DNA of 64,000 nucleotides, taken from Nitrospirales bacterium (GTDB lineage: Bacteria; Nitrospirota; Nitrospiria; Nitrospirales; UBA8639). Within the stretch, counting starts at the first letter, position 1. Every line of letters begins with the position of its first letter. The stretch spans positions 62,001 through 126,000 of the forward strand of contig JAJDBP010000012.1 in NCBI GenBank assembly GCA_029261295.1, given 5' to 3'. The notes beneath the pieces are model-generated. The model was not told where the DNA came from. It saw only the letters and a program-made list of their open reading frames with translations, and ran no database searches. The translations under genes were made by a program, and so were the position numbers. This document shows, one piece after another, positions 5,535-39,429 of this stretch.

Positions 5535-6641
5535 TCACAAGGAATTTACGTTTTTCTTTGTAGGGTTTCCTACGTTAGTCACACTTTTAGTCACACCTTC
5601 TACCTGAAAATTCCCTTTTACCTCTCTCACAACTAGTGATCCTCGATTGATGGCTGAGGCCATATGGTCTTGCACGAGATGCAGGTAGCGCATCGTGGTT
5701 TGAATGGAACGATGCCCAAGAATTTTGCTCACGCTGACCAAATCCACGCCAGCGAGTAATCGACGGGAGGCTCCCGTATGTCGGAGGGTGTGCCAGGTCG
5801 CATTCAAGATCCCGGCTTGCCGTAAGATGCCATCAAAGTGTTCTCCTGCCGAATAGGGATTCTTATGTTTCATGGCATTGGAGGAGTGAGGAAAGACCCA
5901 TGGGCTTTCCAGGGCAGAGTCGAACGAGCGCAGAAGGGTCAGAGCTTGATCACTGATTGGGACGCGCCGGGTTTGATTACTTTTGCTCAACGGAATGGTC
6001 AACGTCTTAGTTTCAAAGTTGACGTTTTCCCATCGTAAGAGAAATTGTTCGCTGGCTCGCAAGCAGGTTTCAATGGCGAAGTGAACTTCTTGCCATGCCT
6101 TCGGGGTCATGAGTTGGTGAATGGTTAAAAACTCATCCTCGCTATAGAATCGATCCTGTTGGGCTTCTGGAAAGAATTTGATCCCTTTCATGGGATGACG
6201 GAGCAGCTTTCCATCATTTACCGCCAAGGTCAGCATGCGACGTAAGGCAGAGAGGTACCGGTTAATGGTGGCCGGTTTCCATTCACCAGCGGCTACCATT
6301 TTGGCTTGATGCCGGCGAATATCTTCATTGGATATTTCAGAAAGCAATCGATCACCCAATATAGTTGCCCAATATTTTGAACGTTGCTCTTCGTGCTGTT
6401 TGTCCCGATTCGTAGTGCCATCCAAGCAGCGATCAATCCAGGTTTTTAAGGTAATGGGTCGGACCCGCTCAGGCTGATAGCGTCCTTCGAGAATTTCAGC
6501 ACGGAGCCGCGTATAGAGGGCTTTCCCTTGTGCCTTACCAGTCACGCGAATAAGGCGTTCCTTTCCATGGTGCTTAATGCGAACATACCACTTACCGGAC
6601 TCTTTTGGTCGTTCTAGAAGGCCCTGGTTTTTTCCTGGCAT
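5535..6641 (-). CDS. Tyrosine recombinase / phage-type integrase
   Basis: 368 residues. An N-terminal arm-binding region is followed by a SAM-like core-binding domain (about 60-155) and a catalytic domain (about 165-330). The catalytic residues can be read as R195 (CLRASE), K220 (LSKSNQTRR), H284 and R287 (HTLRH), H310 (LGHRS) and nucleophile Y319 (MRYLHL). It integrates and excises the surrounding element at tRNA-Leu and is transcribed toward attL. Its 5' end overlaps the zinc-finger gene by 50 bases, so the two are probably co-transcribed. CLR replaces the usual GLR next to the first Arg. The core is otherwise complete. Confidence 0.95.
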   Translation of the reverse strand: MPGKNQGLLERPKESGKWYVRIKHHGKERLIRVTGKAQGKALYTRLRAEILEGRYQPERVRPITLKTWIDRCLDGTTNRDKQHEEQRSKYWATILGDRLLSEISNEDIRRHQAKMVAAGEWKPATINRYLSALRRMLTLAVNDGKLLRHPMKGIKFFPEAQQDRFYSEDEFLTIHQLMTPKAWQEVHFAIETCLRASEQFLLRWENVNFETKTLTIPLSKSNQTRRVPISDQALTLLRSFDSALESPWVFPHSSNAMKHKNPYSAGEHFDGILRQAGILNATWHTLRHTGASRRLLAGVDLVSVSKILGHRSIQTTMRYLHLVQDHMASAINRGSLVVREVKGNFQVEGVTKSVTNVGNPTKKNVNSL

Positions 6642-11945: not shown

Positions 11946-14081
11946 GTGAATTCAAAGCTACAACTGTGGCCGATCTTTATCTGTTACCGACGTGTTGATG
12001 GTGCTGCTGTTGCACGTCGTCTCCACGAAATGTTGGACAAATTGCGAATAGTTGAGCCTGAAAACCAACCAATCCAACTCGACGTCTATCTTGATGAAAC
12101 AATGCCTGGCGTTGAAAATTGGAAGGAACTGCACCGACCGTATCTGGAAAAAGCTCGGGCAATAATCGTTATCTGTACTCCGGGTTCTAAGCTTAACGAG
12201 GGAGAAAATGATTGGGTTCACCTCGAGATTGAGTGGTGGCTAAGACAAAGGGATGTCGCTCCAATTCTAATCGATCCTTTGATGGAGGGTCTCCGTTACG
12301 TACCGTCTCAGATCATACGTCGTTGGCCGGATATTCAACGCATAGCCTTAGTTGAGGAGGAATGGAAAGGGCTATCTGGAGCAGAGCTCGATGAGAAGGT
12401 GTCTGCGGTCCGTCGACAAATTCTGGGAGTGATTCTCCCTAGCGGTGCGGAGATCTATGCCCAAGAACTTGAGCAGGAACGTCGACGCACTAGACGATTA
12501 AAACAGACCTTAACCATGTCCCTGGTATTACTTATTGTAGCAGGAATTCTAGGTGGATATGCCTTTTATAAAGGGCAGGTGGCGAAGGCATCAGGGATTG
12601 ACTCACATGCAGCAAGGTTGTTTGCACAAGCACGCCTACTAGAAATGCGAAAAGAAACGGAAGTAATCCGGCGCGATGATCTTATAAGGCGACTAAGTAC
12701 TAGCCAGGAAACGAGTATACGTTGGAAAAACTTGTCCTACGAACTCCAGCAAATCAAAGAAGAGTTGCGCTTATTAAAAACCAAGGAGGCTGCAGTTCTT
12801 GCTGAGGGACGAGATAGGCTTCGGAAGGCTGATAACACATGGAACATGATCGATGCCTTTGGGTTCAATTTTTTTGCTTTTTCACGAGACAAACCAAAGC
12901 CGCCACATATTTTCTCCATCGAACTAGTCAACGCAGGCTATGGAGAAAGTATTCTTGTCCATTACGGCACGCCCGATGGGATTAAGCTAGTAATGATTAA
13001 CGGCGGTCCACGAGGAAAATTTAAGAATTTTGTTGAGCCGAGACTTCGCCAACTCGGCCTCAATCGATTTGAGGGAGCCCCAGTTCCAATCGAGTTATTC
13101 ATTGTTAGTGATCGAGATGAAGAGAAAACTGGAGGTCTGCTGAGCCTGCTTCAGCGTCTAGTTGAGAGCAACACCGTTGAGGAAAGGTTGGTCGATATCA
13201 GGGGCATATGGGCCAACATCTTTCAAGTTGTTGGCGGGCGGGAATTAATGAGACCACGAATTCGGAGGTTAATAAATGAACTCGGAATTCCGTTGAATAA
13301 ACCATTTGATTACTTCGTTATGCGTCCAGACCAAGGTCAAGTTGTAGTTGCACTCCCGGGTGGTCTAGAAATAATTGTATTGGGTCCAATACAGGGTTCT
13401 ATTGATAAATTACATGCCCATGCGGAACGAGATGCCAGGCGGAGTAGGGGCACGATTGAACGATTAGATAGGGAAGCCTTCTCCGCTGTTGATATCAATC
13501 TCGATCCAGCAAGATTCTCGATTACTCCGCAAGCTAACAACTCAGGCGACGGTTGCATTCCTAGTGTGAACGCACAAAATCTCGTAGGGGGGAGTTACAC
13601 GGACGAATCGGTACCGAATCTTGCTAGCACAATCCTGCTCTTTCGTTATAGAGGAAAAAGCTTTCTTTATACTGGCGATGCGCGGGGGGATCTTATTTTA
13701 GAGGGGCTAAACGCGGCGGGTTTGCTTGATTCTGATGGGAACGGATATTTTGATCTCCTAACCATCCCACATCTTGGAAGCAAGCGTAATATTACCTTCG
13801 ATTTTTTTAAGCGCGTAAAAGCTTCAGGTTATCTGTTTTCGGGAGATGGTCGGCATGGGAACCCTGACATCGCTACCGTTGCTTCCCTGATCTCGGCTCG
13901 AGGCTGTGATTTCTACCGAATGTATTTTGTGAACCGTGATGGGAAACAGGAGGTTCATGGCAAGAAATTTGATGACTTTTTTGAGAAAGAGGAGTCTTAT
14001 AACCCGAGTTATAGAAGGGTATTTCGATCCTTGGAACGAGGCTCTGTTATCATAGATCTACTTAACCCAATACGTCATTAA
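11946..14081 (+). CDS. TIR - transmembrane - metallo-beta-lactamase-fold fusion protein
   Basis: 711 residues from GTG 11946. Residues 8-~165 form a TIR domain: PIFICYRR strand and box 1, then a DVYLDE turn, RAIIVICTPG, and W90 followed by E94 in NDWVHLEIEWWL, the position of the catalytic Glu in NADase TIRs. Basic residues and one membrane helix (about 190-209) follow, then a coiled coil (about 225-290). Residues ~320-655 match the ComEC-type metallo-beta-lactamase fold: LVNAGYGESILVHY, SDRDEEKTGGL (388-398), FLYTGDA (573-579), IPHLGSK (607-613) and FSGDGRHGNPD (631-641). The canonical SHxDxDHxGGL is altered to SDRDEEKTGGL and HHGS to HLGS, so metal binding is doubtful. It is probably a defence or conflict protein with TIR effector and MBL-like sensor. 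This is an inference. Confidence 0.85.
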   Translation: MNSKLQLWPIFICYRRVDGAAVARRLHEMLDKLRIVEPENQPIQLDVYLDETMPGVENWKELHRPYLEKARAIIVICTPGSKLNEGENDWVHLEIEWWLRQRDVAPILIDPLMEGLRYVPSQIIRRWPDIQRIALVEEEWKGLSGAELDEKVSAVRRQILGVILPSGAEIYAQELEQERRRTRRLKQTLTMSLVLLIVAGILGGYAFYKGQVAKASGIDSHAARLFAQARLLEMRKETEVIRRDDLIRRLSTSQETSIRWKNLSYELQQIKEELRLLKTKEAAVLAEGRDRLRKADNTWNMIDAFGFNFFAFSRDKPKPPHIFSIELVNAGYGESILVHYGTPDGIKLVMINGGPRGKFKNFVEPRLRQLGLNRFEGAPVPIELFIVSDRDEEKTGGLLSLLQRLVESNTVEERLVDIRGIWANIFQVVGGRELMRPRIRRLINELGIPLNKPFDYFVMRPDQGQVVVALPGGLEIIVLGPIQGSIDKLHAHAERDARRSRGTIERLDREAFSAVDINLDPARFSITPQANNSGDGCIPSVNAQNLVGGSYTDESVPNLASTILLFRYRGKSFLYTGDARGDLILEGLNAAGLLDSDGNGYFDLLTIPHLGSKRNITFDFFKRVKASGYLFSGDGRHGNPDIATVASLISARGCDFYRMYFVNRDGKQEVHGKKFDDFFEKEESYNPSYRRVFRSLERGSVIIDLLNPIRH

Positions 14082-35049: not shown

Positions 35050-35440
35050 CTATTTGGTGTGCATGAAAAAGTTTTCGATTTCATGATTGTGGTCATGCGA
35101 ATTCCAAAAAGAATTTTCTATGGTTCATGCGATTGCACTTGAATCCCCCCACATCTCACGCGTTATAGGAACGATAATAGTCACCATCGATAATACTATA
35201 GGATACGACCTTCTCGCGAATGCTAGACAGAAGCGCTTGGAATTTGGCCTCCGGAATCGCGGTTGTATCGACAGGGTTTCCACGTTGCCTATGCCGAAGC
35301 CTGGTATATTGCGCGTGGCTCCACGCCCTCGGTTCCCTTTTCCTCGGCTACCAAAATAGGACTTATCGACCTCATGATTCACCAGATAGGAGTTAGGCTT
35401 AAAGTGGGTTGCTACTTGGTCATTGTCGAAGTGTCTGTTT
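35050..35440 (-). pseudogene. Degraded IS1595-family transposase
   Basis: On the minus strand the reading EVDKSYFGSRGKGNRGRGA followed by a hydrophobic strand (IPGFGI) matches the DDE domain of IS1595 (ISXO2-like) transposases. Homology continues in another frame (PEAKFQALLSSIREKVV, then a D-rich SIIDGDYYRSYNA), is interrupted by a TGA, and finally shifts to NHEIENFF (35050-35100). Upstream VATHFKPNSYLV is also in frame. At least two frameshifts and one stop make it non-functional. The terminal repeats are not identified. Confidence 0.75.
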
Positions 35441-35810: not shown

Positions 35811-36641
35811 ATGGAGAAATGTATGCATAATCAAACCTGGAATAATGTCTTCACTCGAGTTCATCTAGGTCTCTTGTCTGTTTCATTTGTCTTGCCAGTG
35901 AGTGTATTTTTCGCCCCAGCCGAGGCTTTTTCTTCTGATTTATACAAGGGAAAATCTGGCATCGAAAAGATCGATAATCGAGTAGGAAAAGACGCGGTTT
36001 CTAAGAGCACCTTGAAAAGGCATAGTCGACAAAATCGAAATGCTGAATTTTCTGAAGAAACTGCAGTATGGAATCAACGAATGCGGCGGAATTGGAGTGC
36101 CGGTGGCTCTGCAGTGTCTGGGCAAGCCTGTTCAAAAAAGTCACCATGCTCATCGATAGCGATAGGGAAGGGGGCCACGGCCAATACGGGCACGGTTACG
36201 GTCGATGGTACAAAGGGCAAGGGCTCGGTTGATACTAAATCCAATATCAAGCAGTCGTCTAATATGGCCATTGGCAACAGGGCCACAGCAAATATGGGCT
36301 CTGTCAATGTGCAGGGATCGAACATCAAAGGTGCGATAAACAACCAATCTAATGTCAAACAATCAGTCAACAAGGCCATTGGAAAAGGGGCCACGGCCAA
36401 TATGGGGTCTGTTAGTGTGCAGGGATCAAACATCAAAGGTGTGATAAACAACCAATCGGATGTCCAACAGTCAGTTAATGAGGCCATTGGCAAAGGGGCC
36501 ACGGCCAATATGGGGTCTGTCAGTGTGCAGGGATCAAAGGTGAAAGGTGCGGTTGCCAACGAATCCCAGGTCAAACAGTCAAGCAGCAAGGCCCGTGGTG
36601 ATGGGGCTTCAGCCAACATGGGCTCTATCACGATAGAGTAA
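35811..36641 (+). CDS. Secreted protein with 36-residue repeats
   Basis: 276 residues; the start may be ATG 35823, which has GGAG at 35813. The signal peptide is about 17-40 (VHLGLLSVSFVLPVSVFFAPAEA). A basic/polar segment follows to residue 116. Then come four 36-residue repeats (117-260) plus a partial fifth (261-276), each of the form AIGKGATANMGSVSVQGS followed by xxKGxxxNxSxVxQSxN. Regular Gly, Asn and small beta-branched residues at fixed spacing suggest stacked beta-arcs or a beta-helix, or an amyloid-like surface fibre. Repeats two to four are nearly identical in DNA too. No known adhesin or curli accessory genes adjoin. Confidence 0.75.
   Translation: MEKCMHNQTWNNVFTRVHLGLLSVSFVLPVSVFFAPAEAFSSDLYKGKSGIEKIDNRVGKDAVSKSTLKRHSRQNRNAEFSEETAVWNQRMRRNWSAGGSAVSGQACSKKSPCSSIAIGKGATANTGTVTVDGTKGKGSVDTKSNIKQSSNMAIGNRATANMGSVNVQGSNIKGAINNQSNVKQSVNKAIGKGATANMGSVSVQGSNIKGVINNQSDVQQSVNEAIGKGATANMGSVSVQGSKVKGAVANESQVKQSSSKARGDGASANMGSITIE
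36159..36638 (+). repeat. Tandem 108-bp repeats within the secreted protein gene
   Basis: Four direct repeats of 108 bases, from 36159 to 36590, and a partial fifth. Units two to four share long identical stretches (for example the segment encoding ATANMGSVSVQGS), so slippage and copy-number variation are likely. Confidence 0.85.
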
Positions 36642-36857: not shown

Positions 36858-36998
36858 AACCTCACTGGGATTTCTGGACATTTAATTAATCCGCAATAGC
36901 CATTTCCCCAAACTCCGTTGGCGGTAGATAGCCAAGAACGGAATAGTCTCCTCTCCCGTTGTAATAGACTTTAATCTAGTCAAATATCTCGCATCTGA
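36858..36998 (-). pseudogene. C-terminal remnant of an IS3-family transposase
   Basis: The minus strand reads IKVYYNGRGDYSVLGYLPPT, then EFG and a stop at 36886-36888. This is the hallmark C-terminus of IS3 OrfB proteins (YIEVFYNRxRRHSALGYLSPxEF). A TAG interrupts the frame before the Ile (CEIFD stop IKVYY), so it is dead. Just beyond the stop, TGTCCAGAAATCCCAGTGAG resembles an IS3-type terminal inverted repeat. Confidence 0.7.
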
Positions 36999-37368: not shown

Positions 37369-39429
37369 GTGGGGACCATTTTCAAAAGTAATCTTATAAA
37401 AATTTTGAGAAGCCTCGTTCCAAGGGCGGGTCTTCTTGGCCGCCTTAGTGTAAACGGTGGTTCAGGTTTCCCTTCCATCTACATGCCATATAAATGGCTC
37501 TTTGGAAGTTTCATGACTTGCACATACATTGTATGTGGTGTTGTTTTTGCCTTACTTTGTTTTTCTCCCCTTACGCTTCTGGCAACAGTCCAAACAAGCA
37601 GTACTGATAGACCTACTCAATCAGAAAAACCTTCCAAGTTAACTGACCCCTATTCAATTTTATCCGCTCATTATACAGCAGTTGGTGGGCTTGAGCGGCT
37701 TAAGAGTGAAAAAAGTTCTTACATGCATGGAACAATTCGATTTGCTGAAATGGATGGGAAACTTAAGCTTTGGGTCGATGGAATCCGGTATCGTCGAGAG
37801 GCGCGTTACTCGGCCTTTTCTCAAATTGAAGGTGATAATGGTTCCTACATGTGGTCCGTGGATTTGAATAACAAACACTTAATTCTTAAAGATCCTGAGA
37901 CTCTAAAAAGAAGAAAAATCAGAGGATTGCTTGATGATTTTGAAAATTTTAATCCCAAAAGTAAATTCTTTCACTTGAGTTTTCTAGGGATCCAAGAAGT
38001 CAAAAGTGAACCGTGCTACGTGATTGAGACTCGCAATACAATTAATCGCGACATCTATTATGATTACTTCAGTGTCAATACGCTCCTGTTATTGAAAGAG
38101 ACTATTAAGGAGCCCTATTTGGAAATTGCGACTTTTCACTCTGATTTTAGGAAACAGAATGGGATGACGTATGCCTTTCGGAGTGAAAATGAAATTTCCC
38201 CAACCGGAAAGAAAATAGTGATTCAAGCAGAGGAACTATTCACCAATATACCGATAGACAATGAAAAATTTGCACTTCCAGAACAAGACGTTCGGGATTT
38301 TACATTTACTAACCATCTCAATGCCGAAGCCATCCCCTTTGTCTTTGTTGAAAATAATATTTTTCTACCTGTCGTCCTTCACGGAGCAACACATTATTGG
38401 GTGCTTGATAGTGGGGCGGATATGTCTGTCATTGATGCTGATTATGCAGATGCGCTTGGTCTCTTGCCTAAGGGAGTATTATTAGGAAATGCGACAAGTA
38501 GCCTGGCTACGTTTAACTTTGTGACCCTAAGCTCATACCGGGTTAAGGGGCTGGAGCTTACCGATCAAACGATTTTATCATACAGAGGACTGGCTTCTCA
38601 CTTTCAGGAACCCGAAATTGTGGGTATTTTAGGGTATGATTTTTTGTCACGCTTTATTACGAAAGTTGATTATTCTAACCGGCACGTCTCCTTCTACGAT
38701 CCTGAAACATTTGGGTATACAGGCGATGGACATCGAATCGATGCTCCTTTGCAAAATAGGCTTTTTCTACTTCCTATGCGAGTGAATGAAATATTTAGCG
38801 GTCGCTTCGGGTTGGATCTGGGTTCATTCGATGTCTCGATGAACTACCTTTTTGCGCAAAGAAATAATTTTTTGCATCATAAGGGGGTCAAGCGATTAAG
38901 CTCAGATATTTCTGGTGTGTTTTATGAACATCAGATAAAGACGCAATCAATGGAAATAGCCGGTTATCATGTAAGCGGTGAGTTGATAAGTTTTCCTATC
39001 ACGCAAGGAATTGGGATGAATTCCAATGAAGAACTGGATGGTTTGATTGGGAATACACTCTTGCGACATTTTACATTGTATCTAGATTATAAAAATCAAC
39101 AATTGATTTTTGAAAAAGGTGACGAATTTAATCATGAATTTCCCGTTGATAAGAGTGGAATGATTGTAGGATGGTCCCAAAATAATTTACCAGAAATTTT
39201 TTTAGTTAACGACAATAGCCCCGCTCATCAGGCGGGCATATTAACGGGAGATATTATCATTGGGATAAATGGCCTTGAGGGTGAGACGCTGCCCAGTATT
39301 GTGGAAATTAAAAACATGTTACGAGCCGAATCCGGCACGCAATATACTCTGAAGCTTTTGAGGGAGAATGAGGATATGACGATTCAATTGGAACTCAATG
39401 ATCTTTTTGAAGGAGGAAAGGTTAAATGA
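37369..39429 (+). CDS. Aspartyl-protease-like protein with LolA-like N-domain and PDZ domain
   Basis: 686 residues from GTG 37369; ATG 37483 (residue 39) is a plausible later start because it precedes the signal sequence (about 41-72). Mature part: a beta-rich N-domain like the outer-membrane-lipoprotein carrier fold (HYTAVGGLERLKSEKSSYMHGTIRF, residues ~98-300). Then comes a retropepsin-type aspartyl domain with the active motif VLDSGADMSVID. A second half follows with FGLDLGSFDVSM, in which DSG is replaced by DLG. The C-terminal PDZ-like domain runs from about 590 to 680 (NDNSPAHQAGILTGDIIIGING). Predicted periplasmic or secreted peptidase. Whether the degenerate second half is active is open. 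Confidence 0.8.
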   Translation: MGTIFKSNLIKILRSLVPRAGLLGRLSVNGGSGFPSIYMPYKWLFGSFMTCTYIVCGVVFALLCFSPLTLLATVQTSSTDRPTQSEKPSKLTDPYSILSAHYTAVGGLERLKSEKSSYMHGTIRFAEMDGKLKLWVDGIRYRREARYSAFSQIEGDNGSYMWSVDLNNKHLILKDPETLKRRKIRGLLDDFENFNPKSKFFHLSFLGIQEVKSEPCYVIETRNTINRDIYYDYFSVNTLLLLKETIKEPYLEIATFHSDFRKQNGMTYAFRSENEISPTGKKIVIQAEELFTNIPIDNEKFALPEQDVRDFTFTNHLNAEAIPFVFVENNIFLPVVLHGATHYWVLDSGADMSVIDADYADALGLLPKGVLLGNATSSLATFNFVTLSSYRVKGLELTDQTILSYRGLASHFQEPEIVGILGYDFLSRFITKVDYSNRHVSFYDPETFGYTGDGHRIDAPLQNRLFLLPMRVNEIFSGRFGLDLGSFDVSMNYLFAQRNNFLHHKGVKRLSSDISGVFYEHQIKTQSMEIAGYHVSGELISFPITQGIGMNSNEELDGLIGNTLLRHFTLYLDYKNQQLIFEKGDEFNHEFPVDKSGMIVGWSQNNLPEIFLVNDNSPAHQAGILTGDIIIGINGLEGETLPSIVEIKNMLRAESGTQYTLKLLRENEDMTIQLELNDLFEGGKVK

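Follow-up and report, generated by a model that had tools for sequence, protein, structure and literature searches.

Within a 64-kb window (64,000 nt, the whole stretch of DNA that was analysed), we found a gene of tandem 36-residue repeats that we read, with somewhat better than even confidence, as the orphan client of a fibre system that is curli-like and of CsgG type but has subunits other than curlins. As its paralogs adjoin a distant relative of CsgG elsewhere in the genome, the window protein probably contributes to building or decorating a curli-like surface fibre of an environmental, Nitrospira-type bacterium.

The repeat gene and its tandem units

The sequence-only reading had placed an open reading frame at 35811..36641 on the + strand, and the ORF listing, the ortholog alignment and the dN/dS ratio all agree with this frame of 276 aa. 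The ATG at 35823 (+) is likely to be the true start, giving 272 aa, because a Shine-Dalgarno-like GGAG lies just 5' of it. A predicted Sec signal peptide occupies 35823..35927 (+; residues 5–39 of the 276-aa ORF), with its hydrophobic maximum at VSFVLPVSVFFA and the ending FFAPAEA. The secretion claimed earlier is consistent with this signal-peptide-like N-terminus closing in APAEA, as recognized by inspection of the sequence.

A non-repeat segment follows the signal peptide, and its second half (EETAVWNQRMRRNW ... C-x5-C; 36054..36158, +) is a linker strongly conserved in the ortholog of a congener (dN/dS 0.12). A lead-in half motif, AIGKGAT (36159..36179, +), precedes four full units of 36 aa, namely unit 1, the most divergent (36180..36287), unit 2 (36288..36395), unit 3 (36396..36503) and unit 4 (36504..36611), and the frame closes with a partial terminal unit, ANMGSITIE (36612..36638); all are on the + strand. 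Tandem Repeats Finder reported a 108-bp period over 36238–36630 (3.6 copies, 80% matches, score 441), and as this was the only tandem repeat that it reported in the 64-kb window, the array is not due to chance. The ANxG motif occurs five times, spaced by exactly 36 residues.

The units had been described as four and nearly identical. The count is right for the full units, to which the partial fifth has to be added, but pairwise identities of the full units are only 47–86% for protein and 62–87% for DNA, and units 2 and 3 form the only close pair (86% and 87%, respectively). Over 70 units of the family, A1, N2, G15, N19, N28 and G32 are near-invariant columns, and a spacing of 17 residues relates N2 to N19, S11 to N28 and G15 to G32. 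The N-x-S-x-V-x-Q string pointed out earlier is curlin-kernel-like, the first core position being Ser; the string is present in the two orphans and in locus L022, but is not conserved family-wide.

Pfam and NCBIfam offered no credible family for the window protein. Its AIGKGATA-type motifs bear a superficial likeness that could suggest the head of a trimeric autotransporter (YadA-like). Such a head is hardly credible, as no YadA head or anchor family was detected in Pfam/NCBIfam at E-values up to 10, and the protein ends in a repeat, the C-terminal anchor being absent.

Predicted solenoid and selection on the gene

In the AlphaFold model (eight sequences), residues 108–272 form a regular run of short strands, mostly at pLDDT 85–96 and with 90 residues at or above 90; residues 1–107 are of low confidence. 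With these regular coils of short strands the window protein is, by prediction, a beta-solenoid, and the stacked beta structure proposed earlier, for which structure prediction was the suggested check, is supported by the model. Five to six short strands are predicted per unit. One unit may correspond to two coils of ~18 residues or to a single layer of the FapC kind, with five to six strands. The solenoid ends in an uncapped partial repeat.

The repeats are rich in N, S and G, low in hydrophobicity and devoid of aromatics, which, together with the unconfident residues 1–107 of the model, would suit a disordered, low-complexity protein with no defined fold. We hold this to be very improbable, given the near-invariant columns of the 36-residue unit (N2, G15, N19, N28, G32 at 98%) over 70 units and the high pLDDT in the repeats.

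Foldseek against the PDB gave no significant match, curli and FapC fibrils included, and we count this against the orphan-client reading. The weak matches were mostly to other beta-solenoids or beta-helices, with MfpA at the top and the E. coli CsgA fibril and FapC among them. A Foldseek match in BFVD to a bracovirus protein (E 3e-4) was dismissed as meaningless (TM 0.29, rmsd 21). Searched by sequence against the PDB, the window protein matched no chain, FapC included, apart from weak hits to acetyltransferases (E up to 10).

Relatives of the orphan gene were found in two of the 21 genomes of the genus, its own (G000) and G020, and this sparse occurrence also weighs against the orphan-client reading. 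The G020 ortholog (L020, 8140–8979) is ~60% identical, has the same number of units with five ANxG-type motifs, and lies among neighbours that differ from those of the window gene. Between the two genes, dN/dS was 0.19 overall (repeats, 0.14; linker, 0.12), values that are approximate since dS (~1.5) is near saturation. The overall ratio indicates that the repeat gene is under purifying selection.

This ratio bears on the possibility that the gene is a relic, duplicated from an operon gene and relocated by mobile elements, with little or no expression. By eye, broken transposase remnants appear on both flanks, an IS1595-like one upstream (35255–35400, −) and an IS3-like C-terminus, VYYNGRGDYSVLGYLPPTEF, downstream (36886–36990, −); Pfam gave no confirmation and found nothing on the upstream-flank ORF. 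No promoter-like site above chance was found 5' of the gene either. However, the frame is intact and constrained relative to an ortholog whose genomic surroundings differ, and units 1 and 2 are each nearest, among the ortholog units, to the one of the same number. We therefore consider a relic quite improbable.

Downstream of the repeat gene, 37369–39429 (+) encodes a 686-aa secreted-looking aspartyl protease with a PDZ domain, which was rejected as a partner because no relative of it occurs in any repeat locus examined. In another part of the window, 11946–14081 (+) encodes a 711-aa protein that, by eye, seems to fuse a TIR-type and a metallo-beta-lactamase-type domain; a phage-type integrase-like ORF (5535–6641, −) is nearby, and the two may belong to a defence or mobile island.

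Paralog operon and CsgG-related putative exporter

Further repeat copies lie on contig C2 of the same genome, outside the window. These paralogs, of 732 and 302 aa, belong to an operon (locus L009), which also encodes small, presumably secreted proteins and has the order 732-aa repeat protein, 302-aa repeat protein, 107-aa protein, 491-aa lipoprotein, 113-aa protein, 245-aa protein (weak LPP20), 106-aa protein, DUF2807 protein and trypsin-PDZ protease. The order from the repeat proteins through the ~107-aa protein, the exporter (the lipoprotein), the ~113-aa, LPP20-like 245-aa and ~106-aa proteins to DUF2807 is conserved, and was seen, whole or in part, also in G020, G225, G274, G329 and G331 and on contigs labelled Nitrospirae, Deltaproteobacteria or Pseudomonadota (L022, L023, L024). 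The 302-aa paralog had no match in plasmid and phage records.

Adjoining the operon (L009, 1832–7121) are genes for an autotransporter beta-domain protein, a caspase-Sel1 protein and an FHA/sigma-54 activator. The neighbouring activator raised the idea of a sigma-54 promoter common to orphan and operon, which was rejected: no convincing site was seen 5' of the repeat genes, and the orphan had no site whatsoever in its upstream region.

In G000 the short operon paralog (302 aa) comprises 7 units, versus 3 in G020 (155 aa), and therefore unit number changes between relatives. The earlier expectation of a variable copy number, compared here between congener genomes, thus holds for the operon paralog, whereas the window gene and its congener ortholog have 5 motif copies each.

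The operon lipoprotein carries a lipobox Cys, is of the outer-membrane type and, as judged from profile comparisons, is a remote CsgG relative. With nine sequences, hhalign of the exporter family against CsgG gave P 65 and E 6e-5; with a larger set it gave P 89.6 and E 1.9e-6 over 241 columns, these E-values being for single comparisons. The alignment spans positions 3–271 of the 318 of CsgG, and is thus collinear over nearly all of it. CsgG was represented in the comparison by the E. coli protein plus two strong CsgG matches that came from a different genus within the same family, and unrelated families used as controls stayed at P ≤ 0.4. Two exporter members had sub-threshold hits to Pfam CsgG (PF03783), which coincided in position (E 0.010 and 0.0072). 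An extra C-terminal region of the exporter has weak similarity to peptidoglycan-binding proteins. A CsgG-homologous lipoprotein encoded together with the repeat subunits is thus a feature of the paralog operon and not of the window, and it is through this operon that the surface fibre proposed earlier becomes plausible.

Several results from this part of the analysis count against the orphan-client reading: the 64-kb window holds no exporter or operon genes, the AlphaFold model of the exporter (three sequences) has a pLDDT of 37.6, a profile search of the PDB with the exporter did not find CsgG, and the ~107- and ~113-aa operon proteins did not match CsgE/CsgF (hhalign P ≤ 8.5), so that an assignment of these small proteins as CsgE/CsgF is unsupported.

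Among other genomes, G329 has two exporter copies (L061, L062) in which C-terminal TPR repeats replace the Pro/Gln-rich tail. In G705 (L116, 453–1998), exporter-adjacent proteins have divergent N-rich repeats (GNNNTANAASV-like), perhaps intermediate between the 36-residue family and curlin-like repeats. G261 and G157 (L066, L067), of the same family and another genus, carry a genuine-looking csgG, with a csgE-like gene too in G261; true curli are therefore also nearby in the tree.

We observed the repeat protein in 7, the exporter in 7 and both in 6 of the 396 genomes of the window's phylum, and in 7, 10 and 7, respectively, of the 395 genomes of the phylum of G421 (Deltaproteobacteria-titled). 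The corresponding hypergeometric probabilities, which ignore kinship, are 9e-12 and 4e-13. The single repeat-only genome of the window's phylum is a weak match (E 5e-4), and in the exporter-only genome G195 the exporter copy is near a contig end. All five genomes reached via the repeat loci L022–L025 and L027 had the exporter. Repeats and exporter together are distributed sporadically over the two phyla. In G421, repeats are on C33, C85 and C100 and the exporter is on C33 only, and L025 is an orphan repeat locus whose genome has its exporter on another contig. As repeat genes lie apart from the single exporter gene in G000, G020, G421 and G423, the orphan client is a recurring arrangement.

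Such strong co-occurrence of repeat genes with the exporter speaks against a monomeric, non-polymerising beta-solenoid, i.e. a scaffold or adhesin, secreted or periplasmic, that resembles the operon proteins in its repeat unit alone and has abandoned the exporter; so does the uncapped end of the solenoid. This alternative would accommodate the orphan location, the unique conserved N-terminal segment with C-x5-C and the presence of only 4.5 units, all imperfect, and many known beta-solenoids are indeed scaffolds, not polymers (PMC10192328). We regard it as unlikely, though worth keeping in view.

Proposed role and comparison with known systems

In the preferred reading, that of an orphan client, the window protein would be exported by Sec via its N-terminal signal peptide and would then pass unfolded through the CsgG-like pore, in trans, the pore gene being on another contig. 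Outside the cell it may fold into an open-ended beta-solenoid held by Asn, Ser and Gly columns, and might be incorporated into, or cap, nucleate or decorate, a surface fibre composed chiefly of the larger operon paralogs. A special subunit role, e.g. as an anchor or cap, could stem from the conserved N-terminal TAVWNQRMRRNW/C-x5-C segment.

Nitrospira-type bacteria form dense flocs and biofilms, and to our knowledge few of their matrix proteins are known. There is a real chance, if slightly short of even, that the proteins described here represent a further class of solenoid fibre, possibly a functional amyloid, separate from curli and Fap and scattered across Nitrospirota and Deltaproteobacteria. 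Its subunits would consist of 36-residue repeats and reach ~1,700 aa, its exporter would be a divergent CsgG type whose tail is peptidoglycan-binding-like, and dispersed orphan subunits would be exported in trans. If this is true, CsgG-type exporters would serve unrelated repeat architectures, and the family would offer a novel modular scaffold of protein fibres that evolves in length through its repeat copy number. A partial literature search found no published description of such a system in these phyla, an absence that does not prove novelty.

Pentapeptide-repeat proteins (A(D/N)LXX) resemble the family in a weak 5-residue periodicity, in the rank of MfpA among the weak structural matches and in the score of the 732-aa paralog against PF00805 (25.9 bits). 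They differ from the family in its period of 36 and its signal-peptide-like N-termini, and the window protein itself has no match to PF00805.

On present evidence, the window protein works like curli or Fap subunits, yet it is not a curlin, because it lacks QxGxxN, a strict kernel, PF07012 and CsgE/CsgF. The curlin repeat is defined by QxGxxN and about 22 residues (PMC3521004). We found this motif 0 times in the window protein, as in the further family members checked, versus 5 times in E. coli CsgA, with one stray copy in G331; PF07012 gave no match for the window protein at E up to 10. What is shared with curli, the principles of whose solenoid have been described (PMC10192328), are tandem-repeat subunits predicted to form beta-solenoids with Asn columns, an outer-membrane lipoprotein, encoded in the paralog operon, that is related to CsgG, and a repeat number that varies between relatives. 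In contrast to curli, the repeat has 36 residues and no strict curlin kernel, the paralog operon has no CsgE/CsgF match, and the exporter has its extra C-terminal region.

FapC repeats form layers, each with five short strands and with conserved Asn/Gln as stabilising residues (PMC12392863), and for the window repeat, likewise, each unit is predicted to have five to six short strands. However, FapC repeats are joined by linkers whereas the window repeats are contiguous, the exporter neighbouring the 36-residue-repeat paralogs is CsgG-like, and the window protein shows neither a PDB sequence match to FapC nor a Pfam/NCBIfam hit. By description, the Pseudomonas FapC/FapB system is joined in its partial likeness by the Caulobacter holdfast anchor HfaA/HfaB/HfaD, which differs in operon gene content and similarly combines a CsgG-like component with surface proteins: HfaB is a CsgG-like translocon needed to place surface proteins, and HfaA is reported to be curlin-like and to form SDS-resistant multimers (PMC6707917).
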